Shown here: positions 13,366-24,510 of the stretch, piece after piece | How the letters are laid out: the number at the start of each line of letters is the position of its first letter | How positions within the stretch are numbered: the stretch's first letter is position 1 | Notes under the pieces: model-generated | What the model was told of the DNA's origin: nothing | The model's database searches: none | The model's input: the letters and a program-made list of their open reading frames with translations, nothing else | DNA from: an uncultured Pseudomonadota bacterium | GTDB taxonomy: Bacteria; Pseudomonadota; Gammaproteobacteria; Methylococcales; Methylomonadaceae | Assembly: GCA_903870545.1 (NCBI GenBank) | Contig: CAIQDI010000018.1 | Coordinates: 62,001-126,000 of the forward strand | Direction: 5' to 3' | Length of the DNA: 64,000 bases | Translations under genes and position numbers: made by a program

Positions 13366-15786
13366 TTAGAAGTTTTGCCCAAAGTTAAATTGGAAAATTT
13401 GTTTTTGGTCGCCGGTTGTTGTCGTGCCATCTATACCACGAACAATAGGCGAAGCATTTAGTGGCTGTGCGACACTGACGGACAATGCACCGAATGGCGA
13501 CATCCATTCACCCGATAAACCCGCTGAATATCTCATGTTCATATTAAAGCCGTTACTCAACGAACCTGCGTCAAAGAATGTGCCTAAACGCACGGATTTT
13601 GTATCGGGCATAAATGGCACGGGGAAAAACAATTCCGCGCTGCCGACCACTTTCGTTGAGCCACCCAATGGATAATTTTGATACGGACAACTTCCAGCCT
13701 GTGGATAAGTCTGATTCCCCGCCGCATCATTAACAGGCGTTCCGTCAGAATTTTTGATTGGTGTTTTTTTGTAGGCATCACAGCTACCAGTATGCGTATC
13801 ACGAACACCCAACGTATTATTTTTAAAGCCGCGCAACGAACCCGTACCACCCGCAAAATAGTTTTCAAAAAATGGCAAATTATCATTTTTACCATAACCA
13901 TCACCGTAACCCGCTTCACCCACAATACGGAATGTAAAATCTTTCGCAACGGGGAAATACATTTGATGTTTATAGCTCAATTTGTAATATTCCAAATCAC
14001 TACCTGGAACCGTTGCCAACGCGGAAAGCCTTTGTTGTCCGCCTTTGTTTGGGAAAATTGCCCGATTCAATGTGTCATGCGTCCAGCCAATCGCGGGCGC
14101 AAAGGTGAAAAATGAATCGCCATTTTTAGTCATAAAATCGGAAATTTCATCGGATGTGTAAGTGGTTGATTTTAATGTTGTGTATTTAGTATCAAAATCA
14201 AAACGAATTTGGTCAAATTCATTCAACGGCAAACCGAAGTTAATCCCCGCGTTCATGACGTTAGTCGTGTAACTGGCGATGTTAATCGCCGACGCATCAC
14301 GTTTGGTGTAACCCAAATTATAGCCTTGACTCACGCCATCGGTGGTGAAATACGGATTGAAAAAACCAAACTGATAACTGGTCAAATAGTTACTGTTATT
14401 AAACGCTAAATTCACCCGTTTGCCCGAACCAAAAACGTTATCTTGCGAAATGTTCGCGTTCAACACAATCCCTTGAACCTGCGAATAACCGACACCCGCC
14501 ATTAAATTCCCCGACGGTTTTTCGGTGACGCTGTAATTCACATCGATTTCGTCCGCCGTTCCTGTCACTGGCGGCGTTTCAACGCTGACTTCTTCAAAAT
14601 AACCTAAACGTTCCAAACGGGTTTTCGAGCGTTCGATTTTAGAACTCGATGCCCAACTCGCTTCCGTTTGACGCATTTCACGACGCAATACTTCGTCCCG
14701 CGTTTTGGTGTTGCCTTTGATATTGATTCGGCGCACATAAACTCGTTTTGCGGGATCTACAAAAAACGTCATGTTCACGGTTTTCGTGGCTTCGACGATT
14801 TCGGGAATCATGTTGACGTTGGCAAACGCATAACCGTCATCGCCCAAACGATCCGAAATTGCTTTCGATGTTTCGGTCGCACTTTTGCGTGAAAAAACTT
14901 CGCCAGGCCCGACTTTCATTAGCTTGATTAACTCGTCAGCGGGAACAACTAAATTGCCCGCGAGTTTCACTTTATCGAGTTTATAAACGTCGCCTTCTTT
15001 GACGTTAATCGTGACGTAAATATCTTTTTTGTCTGGCGTAATCGCCACTTGCGTCGATTCAATGTTGAAATTGATATAACCACGATCCAAATAATACGAG
15101 CGCAACGTTTCCAAATCTGCGCCGAGTTTTTGTTTCGAATATTGGTCATCTTTGGTATAAAACGACAACAAATTCGAGGTGTTTAATTCGATTTTTTTCA
15201 GCAACGTTGGTTCGTCAAACGTGTTGTTGCCGACGATGTTAATTTCTTTAATTTTCGCGACGCGCCCTTCCGATATTTTGATGAAAATAGCGACGCGGTT
15301 TCGGGTTAAATCCGTGACTTCGGTTTTAATAGTTAAGCCATATTTGCCGTGACTGAGATATTGACGATTGAGTTCTTGTTCAACTTTATCGAGTAACTGC
15401 CGATCAAAGGTTTGACCTTCAGATAAGCCAATTTTTTTGAGTGCTTTGGTTAAATCGTCTTTGCTTAAATCTTTGTTGCCTTCAAATAAAATTTTCGCAA
15501 TCGATGGGCGTTCCACGACGTTGACCACTAATGTTGAACCTTCGCGTTCGACAGAAATGTCTTTGAAAAATCCCGTTTTAAATAGTGATTTAATCGCGGG
15601 TGCCGTGTTGTCTAACGAAAAGCGTTCGCCAACCGTCACGGGCAAATAGTTGTAAACCGTGCCTTCGGAAATGCGTTGTAAGCCTTTGACTTTAATGTCC
15701 CGAACGACAAATTCTTCATCAGCTTGAACGGTTTGCGCGGCGAATAAGCAAAGTAAAATGAGGCGAGAAAGTTTTTTTAATTTCAT
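13366..15786 (-). CDS. bamA: Outer membrane assembly factor BamA
   Basis: 806 residues. I start at the ATG at 15784-15786, because it begins the signal peptide (KLSRLILLCLFAAQTVQA) and a longer reading would put 24 unrelated residues first. Five POTRA domains fill about 25-420, and the 16-strand barrel the rest, ending in the usual aromatic residue (FGQNF). The L6 loop has the conserved RGF element (GSLRGFKNNTLG). BamA inserts beta-barrel proteins into the outer membrane. It heads the minus-strand envelope operon with skp, fabZ, lpxA, rnhB and truA. Confidence 0.96.
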   Translation of the reverse strand: MKLKKLSRLILLCLFAAQTVQADEEFVVRDIKVKGLQRISEGTVYNYLPVTVGERFSLDNTAPAIKSLFKTGFFKDISVEREGSTLVVNVVERPSIAKILFEGNKDLSKDDLTKALKKIGLSEGQTFDRQLLDKVEQELNRQYLSHGKYGLTIKTEVTDLTRNRVAIFIKISEGRVAKIKEINIVGNNTFDEPTLLKKIELNTSNLLSFYTKDDQYSKQKLGADLETLRSYYLDRGYINFNIESTQVAITPDKKDIYVTINVKEGDVYKLDKVKLAGNLVVPADELIKLMKVGPGEVFSRKSATETSKAISDRLGDDGYAFANVNMIPEIVEATKTVNMTFFVDPAKRVYVRRINIKGNTKTRDEVLRREMRQTEASWASSSKIERSKTRLERLGYFEEVSVETPPVTGTADEIDVNYSVTEKPSGNLMAGVGYSQVQGIVLNANISQDNVFGSGKRVNLAFNNSNYLTSYQFGFFNPYFTTDGVSQGYNLGYTKRDASAINIASYTTNVMNAGINFGLPLNEFDQIRFDFDTKYTTLKSTTYTSDEISDFMTKNGDSFFTFAPAIGWTHDTLNRAIFPNKGGQQRLSALATVPGSDLEYYKLSYKHQMYFPVAKDFTFRIVGEAGYGDGYGKNDNLPFFENYFAGGTGSLRGFKNNTLGVRDTHTGSCDAYKKTPIKNSDGTPVNDAAGNQTYPQAGSCPYQNYPLGGSTKVVGSAELFFPVPFMPDTKSVRLGTFFDAGSLSNGFNMNMRYSAGLSGEWMSPFGALSVSVAQPLNASPIVRGIDGTTTTGDQKQIFQFNFGQNF

Positions 15787-15889
15787 AGGCAGGGTTCTAA
15801 CGATTGAAAACGAAAAGGAAACAAGGGTTTGATTGGTGCAAATTGTATCACAAGGCAATTGGCGGCTAATAATTTAAGCGTTTCGCCAT

Positions 15890-15916
15890 AAAAAAAGGGC
15901 ATGAATTATGCCCTTT
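15890..15916 (-). terminator. Rho-independent terminator after the short HvfA-like gene
   Basis: Perfect 9-bp stem AAAGGGCAT/ATGCCCTTT with a 5-base loop, followed on the minus strand by a T run. It separates the HvfA-like genes from bamA. Confidence 0.85.
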
Positions 15917-15944
15917 CTACAAACGAACTCAAAACACCCGAATT

Positions 15945-16196
15945 TTAATGTTTCGGTGCTGCTTTTTTCGCTGCTTCATCGGCAGCGGCTTTCTCTTGAG
16001 CTGCTTTTTCAGCCTCTTCTTTTGATTGGTCTTTGGGTGCTTCCATTTTCATGTTCGCGCCGCACGCCATTTCTGTTTCCGCAAGTTGTAAATATGCCGA
16101 CGGTAATTCAGTTGCACCAAACGGATTTACGTCTGCGCTCGCCATGCCTGAAATCAACGCGGCACTGATTGCCAGAGAAGTTGTCATTTTTTTCAT
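15945..16196 (-). CDS. Short HvfA-like precursor paralogue
   Basis: 83 residues with a signal peptide (MKKMTTSLAISAALISGMASA) and a Shine-Dalgarno AGGA. The mature start, NPFGATEL-S-Y-QLA-EMACGA-MKME, is nearly the same as in the larger neighbour at 16224-16856, so they are tandem duplicates. It keeps only one Cys (EMACGA) and then turns into a Lys/Ala-rich tail without EGxCG repeats. It may be a degenerate copy, or a single-site relative. A terminator follows it. Confidence 0.7.
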   Translation of the reverse strand: MKKMTTSLAISAALISGMASADVNPFGATELPSAYLQLAETEMACGANMKMEAPKDQSKEEAEKAAQEKAAADEAAKKAAPKH

Positions 16197-16223
16197 GTTA
16201 AAAAATCCTGTTCAATTACTTAA

Positions 16224-16856
16224 TTATTTAGGCGGATGCACGTCATACAACGGCGAGTTGTCTAACGGTTTATCGTTCGGTTTTGCTGCGCCACACGCCC
16301 CGTCTTTACCTTTGGTCATTTCGCTACAGCCTTTCATATCGTCGCCGCAACCTTGCATTTTTGCACCACACGCGCCTTCAGTCGTTTTGGCATCGGGACA
16401 ATTTTTCATGTCGTCTTTGCATTGTGCGCCACAACTGCCTTCAGCCGCTTTTTTGTCGCCGCCCATCCCGCTCATCGCGGCACCACACGCGCCTTCTTTT
16501 GACATCGCGCCGTGCATTTCGCCACACGAACCTTCTTTGCCTTTCATCATTGCGCCACAAGCTGCTTCCATGCCGGCTTTCATCTTGTCGCCATTCATCA
16601 TGTCGCCGCATTTACCTTCCGGCGATTTTTCGCCTGATGCGGATTTTTTGCCGGCACACGCGCCTTCAGCCGTTTTCGGTTTTTCCATTTTCATGCCTGC
16701 GCCACACGCCATTTCAGCGGCAGCAAGTTGCATATAACCTGACGATAATTCGGTTGCGCCAAACGGGTTGGTGTCAGCATTCACAGCGGTTGCTGCGAAA
16801 CTTGATATTAACGCTGCGCCCATTGCCATCGCGAACGGAGTAGTCATTTTTTTCAT
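16224..16856 (-). CDS. Candidate HvfA/bufferin-like RiPP metallophore precursor
   Basis: 210 residues with a signal peptide (MKKMTTPFAMAMGAALISSF...) and an AGGAG Shine-Dalgarno. NPFGATELSSGYMQLA after the signal, then a low-complexity region with 13 Cys. Five are in strict EGxCG motifs (EGKCG, EGSCG twice, EGACG twice), and four are close variants (EMACG, EGACA, EAACG, DGACG); others are free (AQCKD, KNCPD, QGCGD, KGCSE). In HvfA, EGKCG-type Cys are converted to copper-binding oxazolone-thioamide pairs by HvfB (DUF692) and HvfC (DUF2063). The Met- and Lys-rich spacers suggest metal contact. No such enzymes are in the window. Family placement rests on motifs; an alternative is an unmodified Cys-rich metal buffer. 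Confidence 0.7.
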   Translation of the reverse strand: MKKMTTPFAMAMGAALISSFAATAVNADTNPFGATELSSGYMQLAAAEMACGAGMKMEKPKTAEGACAGKKSASGEKSPEGKCGDMMNGDKMKAGMEAACGAMMKGKEGSCGEMHGAMSKEGACGAAMSGMGGDKKAAEGSCGAQCKDDMKNCPDAKTTEGACGAKMQGCGDDMKGCSEMTKGKDGACGAAKPNDKPLDNSPLYDVHPPK

Positions 16857-16951
16857 TGTAAAAGCTCCTGAGTCTAAAAATATTATTGTTATGAAAGCAT
16901 CGACAAACTAACTTTTTGCCGATTCCGGCTATGATACCAAAAAAACGAAAA

Positions 16952-18070
16952 CTATCGCCGTTGCTTTATTTCTTGGCTCAATTGATACGCCGCCATCGCA
17001 TATAACGGGCTGTGATTGTAGCGCGTAATCACATAAAAATTGTGCAGTCCCAACCACAATTCGTCACCGTCCAACTGTTGTAACGCGACTAATTTTACGT
17101 TGAGATTCGCGGGCAAATTTTCGGTCGTACTGACGTTGAGACGGCTTAATTGCGCGAGGCTCAAAGTCGGTTTCAAATCTTTATTCAACGCAGATTTATA
17201 CTGATTTCCAATTGCAGTCGCCCGAACGGCAATACCTTGACCGTTTTGCCAATCGTTTTTCGCAAAATAATTCGCCACGCTGGCAATCGCATCGCGCGGA
17301 TTGTGCCAAATATCGCGGTGTCCATCGTGTTCAAAATCTTTGGCTAACGCGCGAAAACTGCTCGGCATAAATTGCGGATAACCCATTGCACCGGCATAAG
17401 AACCCATTGGTTCACGCGGATTCATGTTTTCTTCGCGGCATAACAATAAAAAACTTTCGAGTTCGCCAGTAAAAAACGAACTTCGCGGCGGATACGCAAA
17501 CGCAAGCGTTGCCAACGCATCGAGAACGCGATGATTGCCCATGTTTTTGCCGTAACCTGTTTCTACGCCGATAATCGCCACGATAATTTCAGGCGCAACG
17601 CCCGTTTGTTGTGACACGCTATCTAACGCGGCGGCATTGTCACGCCAAAATTTCACCCCGCCCTCAATGCGCGTTTCAGTGAGAAAAATTTTACGGTATT
17701 TATGCCACGGCAAACCTTCAGACGGTGATGAAATACTTTTCAAAATACCTTCTTTAATCACCGCTGATTGCAATAATTGCGTTAATTCCAGTTCATTAAA
17801 ATGATGTTTAGTTACCATTTGGCGCACGAAATTTTTCACATTTTGGTTGAATGAAAGCGGCGTAGTCGGCGCAATCGTTTCGGGCAATGTCGGTTTGATA
17901 ATCGGGCGCGGCAGCTCCTCTTGAATCGGCGGCGCGACTGGTTCCATTGTCGGTAACGTCGTGATTTCGCGTTCTAGCGTGGTGCTACAAGAAGTTAAAT
18001 TCAATGCAGCTGTCACTGTCAGCGCGTAATAAAAATGACGGGAAAAAGGCAAATGATTCGAGGTATTCAT
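16952..18070 (-). CDS. mltB: Lytic murein transglycosylase B
   Basis: 372 residues. Start at 18068-18070 because it gives a lipoprotein signal ending in ALNLTSC; 16 codons upstream are in frame but unlikely. After a Pro-rich linker, the SLT-like catalytic domain (about 110-370) has the catalytic Glu in GVETGYGKNMG and the substrate-groove motif YAGAMGYPQFMPSS. MltB cleaves the MurNAc-GlcNAc bond of peptidoglycan from the outer membrane side. Usual neighbours (rlpA, rodA) are absent. Confidence 0.93.
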   Translation of the reverse strand: MNTSNHLPFSRHFYYALTVTAALNLTSCSTTLEREITTLPTMEPVAPPIQEELPRPIIKPTLPETIAPTTPLSFNQNVKNFVRQMVTKHHFNELELTQLLQSAVIKEGILKSISSPSEGLPWHKYRKIFLTETRIEGGVKFWRDNAAALDSVSQQTGVAPEIIVAIIGVETGYGKNMGNHRVLDALATLAFAYPPRSSFFTGELESFLLLCREENMNPREPMGSYAGAMGYPQFMPSSFRALAKDFEHDGHRDIWHNPRDAIASVANYFAKNDWQNGQGIAVRATAIGNQYKSALNKDLKPTLSLAQLSRLNVSTTENLPANLNVKLVALQQLDGDELWLGLHNFYVITRYNHSPLYAMAAYQLSQEIKQRR

Positions 18071-18324
18071 GGCATTATTTTTTGAGAGTTGAAAACGAAT
18101 TGAATGTGAGCATAGCATTTTTTGCTTGGTCTATTTTTGAAAATTTATTTCGGCAAATAACCTATAAACACTGCGGCATATCACACAATTTTTTAGTTTT
18201 TTTAGTACGTTTATTTATTAACCTATTGAAAAACGAGATATTATTATTTGGCATAATGCGTGCGAAAGGACGATAGATATTTCGCAGTTTAATCCATTTA
18301 TTTCGTGCAGAGGTTTTAATAATT

Positions 18325-18543
18325 ATGGCTACACAATCAGTTAATTCAAAACAACATAATAATAACAGCGCATTACTAATCGGCGCGGGGCTTGCAGTCG
18401 CTTCAATGATTATTTTACCGGCATTTGCTATGCGATTAGGATTGGGCGCGAGTTTAACGGGAGCGTTACGCATTGCGTTAATGAAAGCCTCGAGTAAAGC
18501 CGTGCAAAGTGCGCGATTGCCAGACGATAAATTAAATTGCTAA
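18325..18543 (+). CDS. Small single-pass membrane protein of the copper cluster
   Basis: 72 residues with a membrane segment at about 17-40 (SALLIGAGLAVASMIILPAF) and a basic tail. Not recognised. AGAGG lies upstream of the ATG. It leads the plus-strand set that continues with a metal-binding peptide, another single-pass protein, an HMA protein and a P1B ATPase, so it is probably a membrane component of that metal system. Confidence 0.6.
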   Translation: MATQSVNSKQHNNNSALLIGAGLAVASMIILPAFAMRLGLGASLTGALRIALMKASSKAVQSARLPDDKLNC

Positions 18544-19822: not shown

Positions 19823-22258
19823 GTGACTCAAAAAAACTTCCAAATAGTTCATCAACTCGCGCGACGCATTCGGATTGTGTCGCCGATTCTCAAAAATGAC
19901 CAAGAACGCGCGTATATTTTTGAAATTATTTTAAAAAAACGCCCTGAAATTAAGCGCGTGAAAACGGTCTGGGAAATCGGTTCGGTGGTGATTGAATTTG
20001 ATCCCGCTGGTTTGCCGAAGAAAAATCTGCTGATTTTGCTCGAGGCGGTTTTGGGGAATATCGCGCATAAAAATCCAACCTTGCCGCATCACGAAAAGAA
20101 ACATTTTGACGGCACAATTCAAGACATCGATTTAGCGGTTGAAGGTATGAGTTGCGCGTCGTGCGCGTTGTTAATTGAAATGGTGTTGAAGCGTGACGAA
20201 CGGGTGAAAACCGCGAGCGTGAATTTCGGCACGTCAACGTTGAATGTTCAAGGGCAATTAACGAAAGACGACGTGAATAAATTGATTACGCAAATCGGCT
20301 ATCAAACGTATCCGATGGACACGTTGGCGCAACGTAAAAAACTCATTGAAAAAGAACACAATCGCGTTGCCACGGCGCGAAATCGTTTTGTGTGGTCAGC
20401 GATTTTAAGCACGCCCGTGATTCTTGCGGGAATGGCGATGGTTACGTCGCGCAAATTACATTGGATGCAATTAGCGTTGACCACGCCCGTGGTATTTTGG
20501 GCAGGCTTTCCGTTTTTTGCGAAAGCATGGCGGTTAGCTAGGCAACGCGCAGCAAACATGGATTCCCTCATCGCCTTAGGCGTGGGTTCGGCTTACGGTT
20601 ACAGCTTGCCCGCATTTTTGCGACGTAGCGGACATTTATATTTTGAAGCAGCGGCGGCAATTATCACGTTTGTTTTGCTCGGACGATATTTAGAAGAACG
20701 CGCCAAAGGCAAAGCAGGCGAAGCGATTCGGCAATTAGTGGATTTACAGCCGCAAACCGCCACGCGAATTAACGGCGAAATCGAAGAAATTGTGGACGTT
20801 GACGCGCTCGAAATCGACGACATTATTTTGGTGAGACCTGGTGAAAAAATTCCGACCGACGGCGTGGTCATTCACGGCGTTTCAACGGTTGACGAATCTA
20901 TGGTCACGGGTGAAAGTTTGCCCGTCGTGAAAAATATCGGCAACAAAGTTATCGGTGGTTGCGTGAATGGCAGTGGCGCGTTGCATGTTCAAGTCACGGC
21001 AATCGGCATGGACACCGTGTTGGCGGGAATCGTCCACATGGTTGACCAGGCGCAATCAACGAAATTACCGATTCAAAAACACGTCGATAGAATTTCAGCG
21101 GTTTTCGTGCCGTCGGTGATGGCATTATCGGCATTAACATTGGTCGGCTGGCTCGCGGCGGGCGCGTCGTTTAGTTTTGCATTCGGCAACGCAATTACGG
21201 TTTTATTGATTGCTTGCCCGTGCGCGTTAGGATTGGCAACGCCTGCGGCAATCATGGTTGGCGCAGGTCAAGCCGCCCGCGAAGGTATTTACATTCGCAA
21301 CGGTGAAAGTTTAGAAACCGCCGCGAAACTCAACGTTATCGTGTTCGACAAAACAGGCACGATTACCGAAGGCAAACCGAAAGTCACGGATTTATTGAAA
21401 ATTTCACGCTTGAGCGAAACAAATTTAATCAAATTAGCGGCTTCGGCTGAACACAATTCAGAACATTTTTTAGGCAAAGCGATTGTGCTTTATGCGGCTG
21501 AAAAAAATATCAATTTAGAACCTTGTACGCATTTTCAAAGTGAAACGGGACGTGGCATTAAAGCTGAAATCGATGGCAAAAAAATCTTGCTCGGAAACAA
21601 AGCGTGGTTGATTGAACAAAGCGTTTCGATTGATGGTTTGCAAAATGCGGCGGGTGAATTTGCGTCGCAAGGCAAAACGCCTGTTTTCATGGCGATTAAC
21701 GGCAAAGAAGCGGCAGTTTTTGGCATTGCCGATAAAGCGCGACCCGATGCGGCGGCCGCCATTTTACGTTTGAAAAAACAAGGCATTGAAACGTTAATGG
21801 TCACGGGCGACACCGAAAAAACTGCTCATTATATTGCGGCAAAAGTCGGCATTGAAACCGTAATTGCGAACGCCACACCCGAACAAAAATTAACCGTGAT
21901 TCGAGATTATCAAGCGCAAGGCAAAAAAGTCGGCATGATTGGCGACGGCATTAACGACGCGCCCGCTTTGGCGGCGGCGGATGTGGGTTTTGCGATTGGC
22001 ACGGGAACGGATGTGGCGATTGAATCGGCAGATATGACACTCGTTCAAGGTGATATTTCAAAAGTCACGGCGGGCATTGAACTCAGCAAAAAAACGATTA
22101 CCGTCATCAAACAAAATTTGTTTTGGGCGTTCGGTTACAACGTGATTGCGATTCCGATTGCGGCGGCGGGGCGTTTGAATCCAATGATTGCCTCGGCGGC
22201 AATGGCGTTGAGTTCGGTTTCTGTGATTGTGAATTCACTGCGTTTAAATAAAAACTAA
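19823..22258 (+). CDS. Copper-type P1B ATPase
   Basis: 811 residues from a GTG at 19823, with AAAGG upstream. A CxxC-less HMA_2-like domain (about 1-80) and a canonical HMA domain (GMSCASC, C111 and C114) precede the membrane part. The membrane metal site is CPCALG (465-470), phosphorylation Asp is D509 in DKTGT, the hinge is [10 protein letters not shown], and the last helices carry the [13 protein letters not shown] motif of Cu+ ATPases. The SEHP motif of the ATP-binding domain reads SEHF (H548, F549), losing the conserved Pro. It pumps monovalent copper from the cytoplasm or to a cuproenzyme. A DsbD-like membrane protein and pqqDE follow. Confidence 0.9.
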
Positions 22259-22270
22259 AAAGGGATTTTT

Positions 22271-23104
22271 ATGGATCATTCAACGATGGATCACAGCATG
22301 CACGTCATGGCGGCTTCGGGCGGTTTTGATTATGGCTTGGCGTTTATGGCAGGAGTTTTAGGAAGCGGGCATTGTTTGGGAATGTGTGGCGCGTTGGTGT
22401 CAGGTTATTTTATGAATTCGACCGCGACGCGCAGTTATTTACCGTATTTGTTTTATCAATTTGCCCGAATCAGCGTTTATACGATGGTGGGTTTTGCGGC
22501 GGCGGCAATGGGAATGGTGTTAATTTCCAGCGGCATTTTTGGCAAAGTTCAAAGCATTTTGCAAATGTTCATTGGCGCGGTGGTGATTATTTTGGCGTTG
22601 GGAATTTTAGGCTGGATTCCGTTTCAAGGGTCGATTCGTTTGATTCCAATGGCATTTATTCGCAAAGGTTACGCCGCGTCACGCACCAAAGGCGGCATTA
22701 TTGGCGCGTCGTTAGCAGGTTTAATGAATGGTTTAATGCCGTGTCCACTGACATTTGCGATGGCGGTGAAAGCGACTTCTGCGCCGACGATTTTAGACGG
22801 CGGTTTGTTGATGCTCACGTTTGGCGCGGGAACATTGCCCACGATGTTGTTTATTAGCGTGGCGTTTGGCAAAATGAACGCGCATTTTCGCGGTTTGATG
22901 TTGAAATCTGCGGCGTTCATTATGATTGCGATGGGTGCAAATACGATTTATATGGGCTTGTCGTTTTACACGATGGAAACGTTTATGCACCACAATTTCG
23001 TTCACGATGTTAAAAACGAAATTGACGCGGCAATTATGTTTTTGATGCAAATGCTGGAATACTACAAAGGCTTGTTGAATAATTTACAAAACGCAGGCAG
23101 TTAA
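22271..23104 (+). CDS. DsbD_2/TauE-SafE-like membrane protein (putative copper transport)
   Basis: 277 residues with a His/Met-rich N-terminus (MDHSTMDHSMHVMA) and six or more membrane helices. GHCLGMCG near the start and MNGLMPCPLTFAMAVKA in the middle fit the PF13386 family (annotated sulfite exporter TauE/SafE). Members work with copper ATPases in cytochrome oxidase or copper handling. It lies 12 bases after the ATPase gene, supporting a metal role; actual substrate unproven. Confidence 0.8.
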   Translation: MDHSTMDHSMHVMAASGGFDYGLAFMAGVLGSGHCLGMCGALVSGYFMNSTATRSYLPYLFYQFARISVYTMVGFAAAAMGMVLISSGIFGKVQSILQMFIGAVVIILALGILGWIPFQGSIRLIPMAFIRKGYAASRTKGGIIGASLAGLMNGLMPCPLTFAMAVKATSAPTILDGGLLMLTFGAGTLPTMLFISVAFGKMNAHFRGLMLKSAAFIMIAMGANTIYMGLSFYTMETFMHHNFVHDVKNEIDAAIMFLMQMLEYYKGLLNNLQNAGS

Positions 23105-23129: not shown

Positions 23130-23402
23130 ATGACTTTAAACCCCGAACAATTACTCACTTTTTCGCCGTTGCACCGCTTGCAATGGGAAGAAGTGCAGCA
23201 AAAAACCGTTATTTTATATCCCGAAGGCATGGTCGAATTAAACCAAAGTTCGGCAGAAATTCTGAAACTGTGTGACGGCACGCGCCACCTCGCCCAACTG
23301 GTGCAAGAATTAGAAACCACATTTGAAACGTCAGGTTTAACCGCCGACATTACTGCTTTTTTAGAGGTTGCTTTAGATAATGGCTGGATTACTCAAAACT
23401 AA
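23130..23402 (+). CDS. pqqD: PQQ biosynthesis chaperone PqqD
   Basis: 90 residues. PqqD is the peptide-recognition (RRE) protein that presents the PqqA precursor to Pqq[21 protein letters not shown] is the conserved core segment. The gene overlaps pqqE by 23 bases, as is typical. pqqA, pqqB and pqqC are not next to it, so the pathway must be completed elsewhere. Confidence 0.93.
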
Positions 23403-24510
23403 TACGCCGCCGCGCTGGTTATTGGCGGAATTAACGTATGCGTGTCCGTTGCAATGCCCGTATTGCTCGAATCCGCTCGATTACACAAAATACAAAAGCG
23501 AACTTAGCACCGACGATTGGAAACGTGTGTTGACCGAGGCGCGAAAAATGGGCGCGGTGCAACTTGGTTTTTCAGGCGGCGAACCGCTCACTCGTCCCGA
23601 TTTGGTCGAATTAGTGCAGCACGCGCGGGACTTGGGTTATTACTCGAATCTGATTACCTCCGGTTATGGGCTGACCGAAGAAAAAATTATGCAACTGAAA
23701 ACCGCTGGACTCGACCACATTCAAGTCAGTATTCAAGCCAGTTCGCAAGAATTAAACGACCACATTGCCGGTACTGCGTCGTTTGAACATAAACAAAACG
23801 TGGCGCGATTGGTGAAAAAACACGGTTATCCGATGGTGCTTTGCGTCGTGATTCACCGTGAAAACATTCATCAAATGCCCGAAATTTTGGCAATGGCGGA
23901 AGCGTTGGGCGCGGATTATTTAGAGTTGGCAAACACGCAATACTACGGCTGGGCGCATTTGAATCGGGATTTGTTGTTGCCGACAAAAGAACAATTTGAA
24001 ACGGCTGAAGCCATTGCTCAAGCGTATAAAGAAAAAGTCGCGGGCAAAATGAAAATTTATTACGTCGTGCCAGATTTTTACGAAAACCGCCCGAAAGCGT
24101 GCATGAACGGTTGGGCGACGACATTTTTAACCATCGCGCCAGACGGCGTAGCGTTGCCGTGTCATTCGGCGCGAGATTTACCGAATTTTGATTGCCCGAA
24201 TGTGAATGATTTCAGCGTTTCAGATATTTGGCACGATTCAAAAGCGTTTAATTTCTTTCGCGGTTTTGAATGGATGCAAGAACCGTGTCGGAGTTGCGAC
24301 GAAAAAGAAAAAGATTTTGGCGGCTGTCGTTGCCAAGCCTATTTGTTGACCGGCGACGCAAGCGCAACCGACCCGGTTTGCAGCAAATCCCCGCAACATT
24401 ATGTTGTCGATGAACTGATTGCCACGGCACGAACTTCAGCGTTATCAAGTAATGAAAAACCGCTCGTTTTTCGGAACAGTAAAAATGCAGGAAGACGTTT
24501 GAGTGATTAA
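23380..24510 (+). CDS. pqqE: PQQ biosynthesis radical SAM enzyme PqqE
   Basis: 376 residues. PqqE forms the carbon-carbon bond between Glu and Tyr of PqqA, the first step of PQQ synthesis. The radical SAM cluster motif is CPLQCPYC (C22, C26, C29). The C-terminal SPASM region keeps its Cys ligands (KACMNGW, LPCHSA, EPCRSC, GGCRCQA, DPVC). The sequence follows the standard PqqE pattern closely (for example [20 protein letters not shown]), which argues against another SPASM enzyme. PQQ is the cofactor of methanol dehydrogenases. Confidence 0.96.

Follow-up and report, generated by a model that had tools for sequence, protein, structure and literature searches.

Two tandem genes in the window, the 64,000-nucleotide stretch of DNA analysed here, are best read as precursors of a modified peptide that are, in our judgement, probably matured in trans by an HvfB-HvfC enzyme pair encoded on another contig of the same genome (C10). 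Maturation in trans appears most likely because the enzymes that are missing from the window exist elsewhere in the genome. The genes and their surroundings are as follows.

13366..15858, minus strand: bamA, as we take the gene to be from its sequence; downstream neighbour outside the system (longest ORF; the true start is probably an ATG near 15786)
15890..15916, minus strand: hairpin AAAGGGCAT-AATTC-ATGCCCTTT and then a T run, after the small gene (found by eye)
15945..16196, minus strand: small paralogue of 83 amino acids with a Lys/Ala/Glu tail (ORF list, alignment, pN/pS)
16224..16856, minus strand: large putative HvfA-type precursor of 210 amino acids (ORF list, sequence reading)
16894..16942, minus strand: conserved upstream element of the precursor unit (patterns and covariance model)
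16952..18118, minus strand: lytic transglycosylase (SLT_2), upstream neighbour outside the system (family match)

The sequence-only reading had described two tandem HvfA-like genes with a signal peptide and an NPFGATEL leader, the larger with 13 cysteines, five of them in EGxCG, and this description was borne out. Both proteins start with MKK and carry that leader behind a Sec-type signal, judged by reading of the sequence rather than by a program; in the large precursor the start is followed by a hydrophobic stretch up to VNA. Its leader, NPFGATELSSGYMQLA (also given as DTNPFGATELSSGYMQLA), precedes a part rich in Lys, Gly, Met and Cys. The EGxCG cysteines are located at positions 83, 111, 124, 142 and 163, and, set against a repeated EGKCG, one of these five motifs is EGKCG proper. 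Four further cysteines are found in the motifs EMACG, EGACA, EAACG and DGACG, and four lie outside ExxCG-like motifs (AQCKD, KNCPD, QGCGD and KGCSE). Cysteine makes up 7.1% of the mature part and methionine 9.9% (18 of 182 residues), the latter a feature that the earlier reading had passed over. The small gene follows 27 nt downstream on the minus strand. Its product had been described as a paralogue with the same signal and leader and one cysteine, which is correct; this cysteine is part of EMACGANMKM.

A homology search up to an E value of 10 returned from this genome the two window genes alone. The codon pattern for EGxCG (GARGGNNNNTGYGGN) matched the genome nine times, five times in the large gene and four times as scattered singles, while the reversed control gave 12 matches; EGxCG is clustered nowhere in the genome except in the large precursor. 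Searches with Pfam and NCBIfam profiles found no family above cut-off for either protein, and neither matched the NCBIfam HvfA models NF050188 and NF050137. The missing HvfA match is a weak counter-argument since the 13-Cys relative L014, which is adjacent to hvfB, also fails; of five operon-borne homologues, four pass NF050137, none passes the cut-off of NF050188 and L014 matches neither. The window proteins share homology, including the leader, with precursors located directly upstream of hvfB, and by this homology they would be diverged HvfA-type precursors rather than certified members of the family. Genes for an MNIO (DUF692) and a DUF2063 protein are not linked to them. Such linkage is usual and not defining, since stand-alone and tandem MNIO precursors, including stand-alone bufferin precursors, are on record in the accessible text of PMC12452194. 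AlphaFold2 gave no confident fold for the large precursor together with nine homologues (mean pLDDT 39.5), a result consistent with a flexible RiPP precursor without being evidence for one.

The genome (39 contigs, 2.68 Mb, 98.3% complete) encodes one DUF692 and one DUF2063 protein, and the two genes overlap each other on contig C10. The claim that no modification enzymes are present in the window therefore stands, as does the first of the two possibilities raised for these apparently orphan genes, that their enzymes lie elsewhere: the genome has a single hvfB-hvfC pair, of the appropriate class, and a refutation by absence of both domains from the genome has failed. The gene mnmE lies 12 nt before the pair. 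Because yidC and dnaA are located on the same 20-kb stretch, hvfBC is positioned near the likely replication origin. No ORF resembling a precursor was detected within the 20 kb around hvfBC; one LNPF string occurs there, without cysteine.

The MNIO passes the HvfB model NF003818 (445 bits, cut-off 360), and the DUF2063 protein passes the HvfC model NF050145 (291.6 bits, cut-off 142) and also exceeds the cut-off of PF09836. The MNIO stays below the cut-off for BufB (287.8 versus 310 bits) and far below that for MbnB (54.9 versus 325 bits). For HvfB the available part of PMC13419390 names N175, D242 and H244, and for FonB that of PMC12668002 names Arg15, Arg16, Asp249 and Phe250, the two Arg and the Phe being substrate residues of the Lys-Cys (EGKCG) class. 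Residues were matched by motif and not by numbering, in all 47 MNIO loci given and with no residue filter (47 of the 76 DUF692 places, plus loci added later). All 47 MNIOs compared, among them the 17 HvfB proteins of the genus, agree in the active-site motif residues. Both the second Arg and the Phe occur in every HvfB from the genus (17) and from the family's other genera (17), whereas the remaining 13 MNIOs all have Lys, Thr or Pro and Asp or Asn in their place. The first Arg is shared by these 34 HvfB and by 10 of the 13 other MNIOs. Judged from these residues, the MNIO of this genome belongs with the class that processes EGKCG. Related FonBC enzymes accept EAACG/EGACG and DGKCG motifs, according to the excerpted text of PMC12668002.

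The separation of precursor and enzymes is a property of the genus. Both precursor and hvfB were mapped in 16 of its 18 genomes and are unlinked in every one of these, a count that reflects one genus-level split (with a second in G036) and not many independent events. Among family genomes of other genera that have both, 17 of 18 have the precursor immediately before hvfB, and the two are adjacent in 15 of 16 genomes from the remainder of the order. The count is based on 72 of 88 precursor rows and 73 of 76 DUF692 rows; the rows omitted are 16 second segments of genes already included and three fragments (two in G030, one in G002), respectively. A candidate split in G060 was set aside as probably spurious, being a weak match (E 0.007) with an internal stop. 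A full DUF692 gene is present in 17 of the 18 genus genomes and DUF2063 in all 18; the DUF692 match in G002 (91% complete) covers 26 residues and is below cut-off. No precursor was found in G017 (72% complete), and eight genomes of the order are without a precursor match. The named relatives are MAGs, one of them being the isolate UBA10906, which is listed as an uncultured clade of lake Methylococcales in the accessible portion of PMC11192741.

Most of the relatives' assemblies are fragmented, so that the split might be an artefact of assembly or binning, with the enzymes in reality located beside the precursors. This is extremely improbable: in this genome both loci lie deep inside their contigs, the precursors on one of 215 kb and hvfBC on one of 114 kb, with unrelated genes on either side, and a tblastn search (E <= 1e-5) of the genus precursor loci, covering 1.5 kb or 5 kb per side where contigs allow, found neither HvfB nor HvfC. 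The agreement of all 16 genomes likewise argues against an artefact.

The gene immediately before hvfB is mnmE in 7 of the 18 genus genomes; it is another one in the remaining genomes inspected, and G009 and G011 gave no mnmE match. The precursor adjoins bamA in 6 of 17. The split is old in the genus, and both halves have relocated further within it.

Several loci of relatives show arrangements of their own. In G036, from another genus, a second, independent split is seen, with genes that read as sigma-like, anti-sigma-like and DoxX-like together with hvfB and hvfC and no precursor on one contig (L146), and the precursors on two further contigs (L144 and L145). The family genome G023 (98% complete) has a precursor (L143, 5418-5801), followed by genes that read as ECF sigma-like and small anti-sigma-like, and neither DUF692 nor DUF2063 was found there; a gap is possible because mnmE is unmatched as well. 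A second, different precursor with DFGVTEL and no NPF is located in the genus genome G001 (L150, 2916-6519), close to ECF sigma and DoxX genes (Pfam) and an anti-sigma-like gene, with no MNIO in the 8 kb. Genes 3' of hvfC (L063, 5996-9169) recur in the genus members L147, L149 and L155-L157; they encode proteins of 142 and 130 amino acids without Pfam match and a protein of about 628 amino acids with a DCC1-like thiol-disulfide oxidoreductase domain. The precursor locus of L073, titled Methylomagnum ishizawai, is nearly identical to that of the Methyloglobulus record L072, and one of the two titles is probably wrong.

A homologue of the precursor is present in 17 of the 18 genus genomes, this one included, and this distribution together with the low pN/pS shows that the gene pair is not a chance find. 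Among 19 aligned precursors from 19 genomes, chosen with an NPF filter, the leader positions E, GYMQ and A and the three-Cys core CGxMM...KMK.G.E..CG.MMK..EG.CG are invariant. With a wider pattern, NPF is replaced by LFG (G005, G009, G013) or VFG (G002, G015) in 5 of 17 genus genomes and by SPF in four further loci (L072, L073, L080, L082). Since NPF varies, the firm leader signature is FG.TEL plus GYMQ; by reading, FG[AV]T[EQ]L and GYMQxA are found in all genus genomes that have a precursor (17 of 17). In the large gene pN/pS is 0.10-0.16 for residues 1-126 (10 copies), with the lowest value, 0.10, for leader and first motif versus 0.14 and 0.16. Most genus members have a 6-Cys form of the precursor, which is without the extra 7-Cys segment (CxxxMKxC...EGACGAKMxGCGExMxGC) of the 13-Cys form; this segment also occurs in operon-borne precursors outside the genus (L014, L022, L027, L072, L073).

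One could regard hvfBC and the precursors as relicts of a decaying system that are drifting apart. The genome G005 would fit such a decay, having hvfB and hvfC apart (L148 and L149) and a large precursor with only four cysteines in ExxCG-type motifs, and so would the loss of the second cysteine in 5 of 10 small paralogues. Against this stand the intact active-site motifs of all 17 HvfB, a pN/pS of 0.10-0.19 across leader and core, and the retention of the system in nearly all genomes of the genus, and we consider decay very unlikely. In G005 hvfB is followed, by reading, by a DUF3293 gene and a transposase-like fragment, and hvfC retains its genus-typical neighbours.

A more serious alternative, still unlikely in our view, is that the proteins are unmodified periplasmic Cys/Met-rich buffers of copper(I), which keep signal and leader by descent while HvfBC serves another substrate. 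The high content of methionine and cysteine would suit such a role, as would the missing HvfA profile match, the 8 of 13 cysteines outside EGxCG in the large precursor and the small paralogue, of which all copies keep just M-x-C-G-A-x-M-K-M. In addition, the authors of PMC12452194, in the text available, allow that precursors unlinked to an MNIO stay unmodified. Yet the HvfB substrate residues are of the EGKCG class, no other EGxCG cluster is present in the genome and none near hvfBC, and the lowest pN/pS falls on leader and first motif, a constraint that an unmodified buffer would not need. We therefore prefer maturation by the enzymes of C10. The near-universal co-retention of precursor and enzymes cannot show that one depends on the other.

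The small paralogue is present in 10 of the 18 genus genomes. All 10 aligned copies keep the leader NPF..TEL and EMxCGAxMKM with one invariant cysteine; the second cysteine (EGACA) is kept in five of them. The pN/pS of 0.19 for leader and motif versus 0.55 for the tail (9 copies) shows that selection acts on the site. Both genes had been taken for precursors; the small protein is an uncertain substrate, since related FonBC left a one-repeat peptide unmodified in vitro (PMC12668002, accessible part). By analogy, the small protein might be modified poorly, compete for HvfC or, as it is, act as a Cys/Met ligand of Cu(I). A one-site substrate or an HvfC-binding competitor seems most likely, if weakly so.

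Upstream of the large gene, an extended -10-like sequence, TTTTGGTATCATA, is followed by the inverted repeat ATCGGCAAA-AAGTTAG-TTTGTCGAT. Across relatives the element consists of TTTGGTATNATAA, 6-8 nt and an inverted repeat TCGAYR...YRTCGA whose loop varies in length, about 25-90 nt ahead of the start codon (farther in G003). All 17 first precursors in the genus conform to a loose pattern; in G001, G006, G007, G009, G012 and G016 one pair of the six-pair arms is mismatched, and the second precursor of G015 is without the element. By reading, it was also seen in 6 of 12 inspected upstream regions from other genera. A covariance model trained on 17 of the 23 element-bearing upstream regions had a single match in this genome, upstream of the precursor (E 6e-7; 150 of 994 first-look candidates scored). 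In 27 sources it had eight matches, of which L080 alone (E 4.5e-4) is independent of the training set, the match in L073 being nearly identical to L072. No match was found in the 20 kb around hvfBC or in the other genus hvfBC loci searched, and the pattern was not seen in the 160 nt before hvfB in six of six genus genomes inspected.

The element is thus common to the precursor unit and some canonical hvfABC operons, and the upstream regions indicate that it stayed with the precursor. Since it was not seen before hvfB, the precursor and not the enzymes might be the regulated part. Its position suggests that it forms the 5' end of the transcript, and the inverted repeat might be either an RNA hairpin in the 5' UTR or a DNA operator. 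In six alignment cells both sides had changed (27 of 500 shuffles reached this number), 97.1% of the cells are paired (44 of 500 shuffles), and the covariation score was matched in 10 of 500; the three inner pairs shuffled separately in 22 sequences gave 382 of 5000. The covariation in the inverted repeat is weak and suggestive only. An ECF sigma/anti-sigma pair was considered as a regulator because some relatives have such genes beside the precursor; as a general regulator it was rejected, an anti-sigma homologue being without match in this genome and matched in 3 of 37 genomes overall.

The hairpin at 15890..15916 is probably a terminator that parts the precursor pair from bamA; it was not among the sites listed by a consensus terminator scan, which gave five terminator-like sites versus 2.5 (sd 1.9) in shuffles. 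The corresponding promoter scan gave two sites versus 2.0 in shuffles, and an Rfam search of 14500-18500 found nothing. On the opposite strand, at a distance of about 3 kb from the precursor genes, the window encodes a heavy-metal P-type ATPase and then a DsbD_2-type membrane protein (19823-23104, plus strand). The DsbD_2-type gene is followed by a radical SAM/SPASM gene (23380-24510), and the ORF just before the latter is presumably PqqD-like. The genome has a gene for subunit A of pMMO/AMO, so that the organism is presumably a methanotroph.

Among known systems, the oxazolin/Buf_EGKCG group (the captophorins oxazolin, fontiphorin and gonophorin; bulbicupramide) is closest in having a Sec signal, a leader and repeated ExxCG-type motifs, with an HvfB-class MNIO and a DUF2063 partner in the genome. 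It differs in linkage, the precursors here being unlinked from hvfBC throughout the genus, in the motifs, which here are mostly EG[AS]CG plus EMACG/EAACG/DGACG, and in the methionine content, the mini-paralogue and DoxX, which was absent among the neighbouring genes searched. Buf1 (DUF2282) and Buf2 (6 or 12 Cys) are likewise exported Cys-rich precursors for an MNIO and a DUF2063 protein; here, however, no DUF2282 domain was found above cut-off in either window protein, the motif is another one, and the MNIO is below the BufB cut-off and has residues of another class. A copper peptide made by an MNIO in a methanotroph, as is putative here, recalls methanobactin (MbnABC). Methanobactin precursors are short and leader-only, whereas the precursor here is long and has a Sec signal, and its MNIO is not of the MbnB class. 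EGxCG had been ascribed to HvfA and bufferins alike; it marks the oxazolin/Buf_EGKCG group, while Buf1 and Buf2 bufferins are other families, as stated in the available text of PMC12452194. The oxazolone-thioamide chemistry assumed earlier has been superseded, the product of HvfB-class enzymes now being assigned as a 5-thiooxazole in revision of the earlier oxazolin structure (PMC12668002 and PMC13419390, in their accessible parts). A related cluster from Microbulbifer is treated in PMC12538549, as far as its available text shows. Among the matches listed by our literature search, which was mostly without subscription papers, no title dealt with a split arrangement in methanotrophs.

We propose that the two genes of the window represent the precursor side of an oxazolin/captophorin-type RiPP system that is dispersed in the genome of a presumed Methylococcales methanotroph. 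The Cys/Met-rich precursor and its mini-paralogue would be made from a unit of their own under the promoter/inverted-repeat element. HvfC would recognise the leader in the cytoplasm, and HvfB would turn EGxCG-type cysteines into 5-thiooxazoles in trans, both enzymes being supplied from their place after mnmE on C10. The modified product would leave by the Sec pathway and then buffer periplasmic copper. Modification, copper binding, leader recognition and function of the precursor are predictions from sequence comparison. A further idea is tentative and rather doubtful: in this genus a one-operon RiPP might have become dispersed and uncoupled in dosage, with the enzymes at unrelated loci (here near the likely origin) and the precursors alone under a regulated element. 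The mini-paralogue, consisting of a leader and one EMxCGAxMKM site, would be a new functional part, serving as a copper carrier with a single warhead or as a decoy whose leader titrates HvfBC.

Whether enzymes at another locus modify unlinked MNIO precursors, or whether these stay unmodified, is a question left open in the available text of PMC12452194, in which a Legionella genome with eight precursor and seven MNIO genes is named. The genus described here would offer a clean test of action at a distance because, genus-wide, it sets a single precursor pair against a single enzyme pair at another locus of the same genome. The natural variants EMACG, EAACG, DGACG and EGACA, together with the one-site paralogue, would probe how the enzyme chooses its cysteines.
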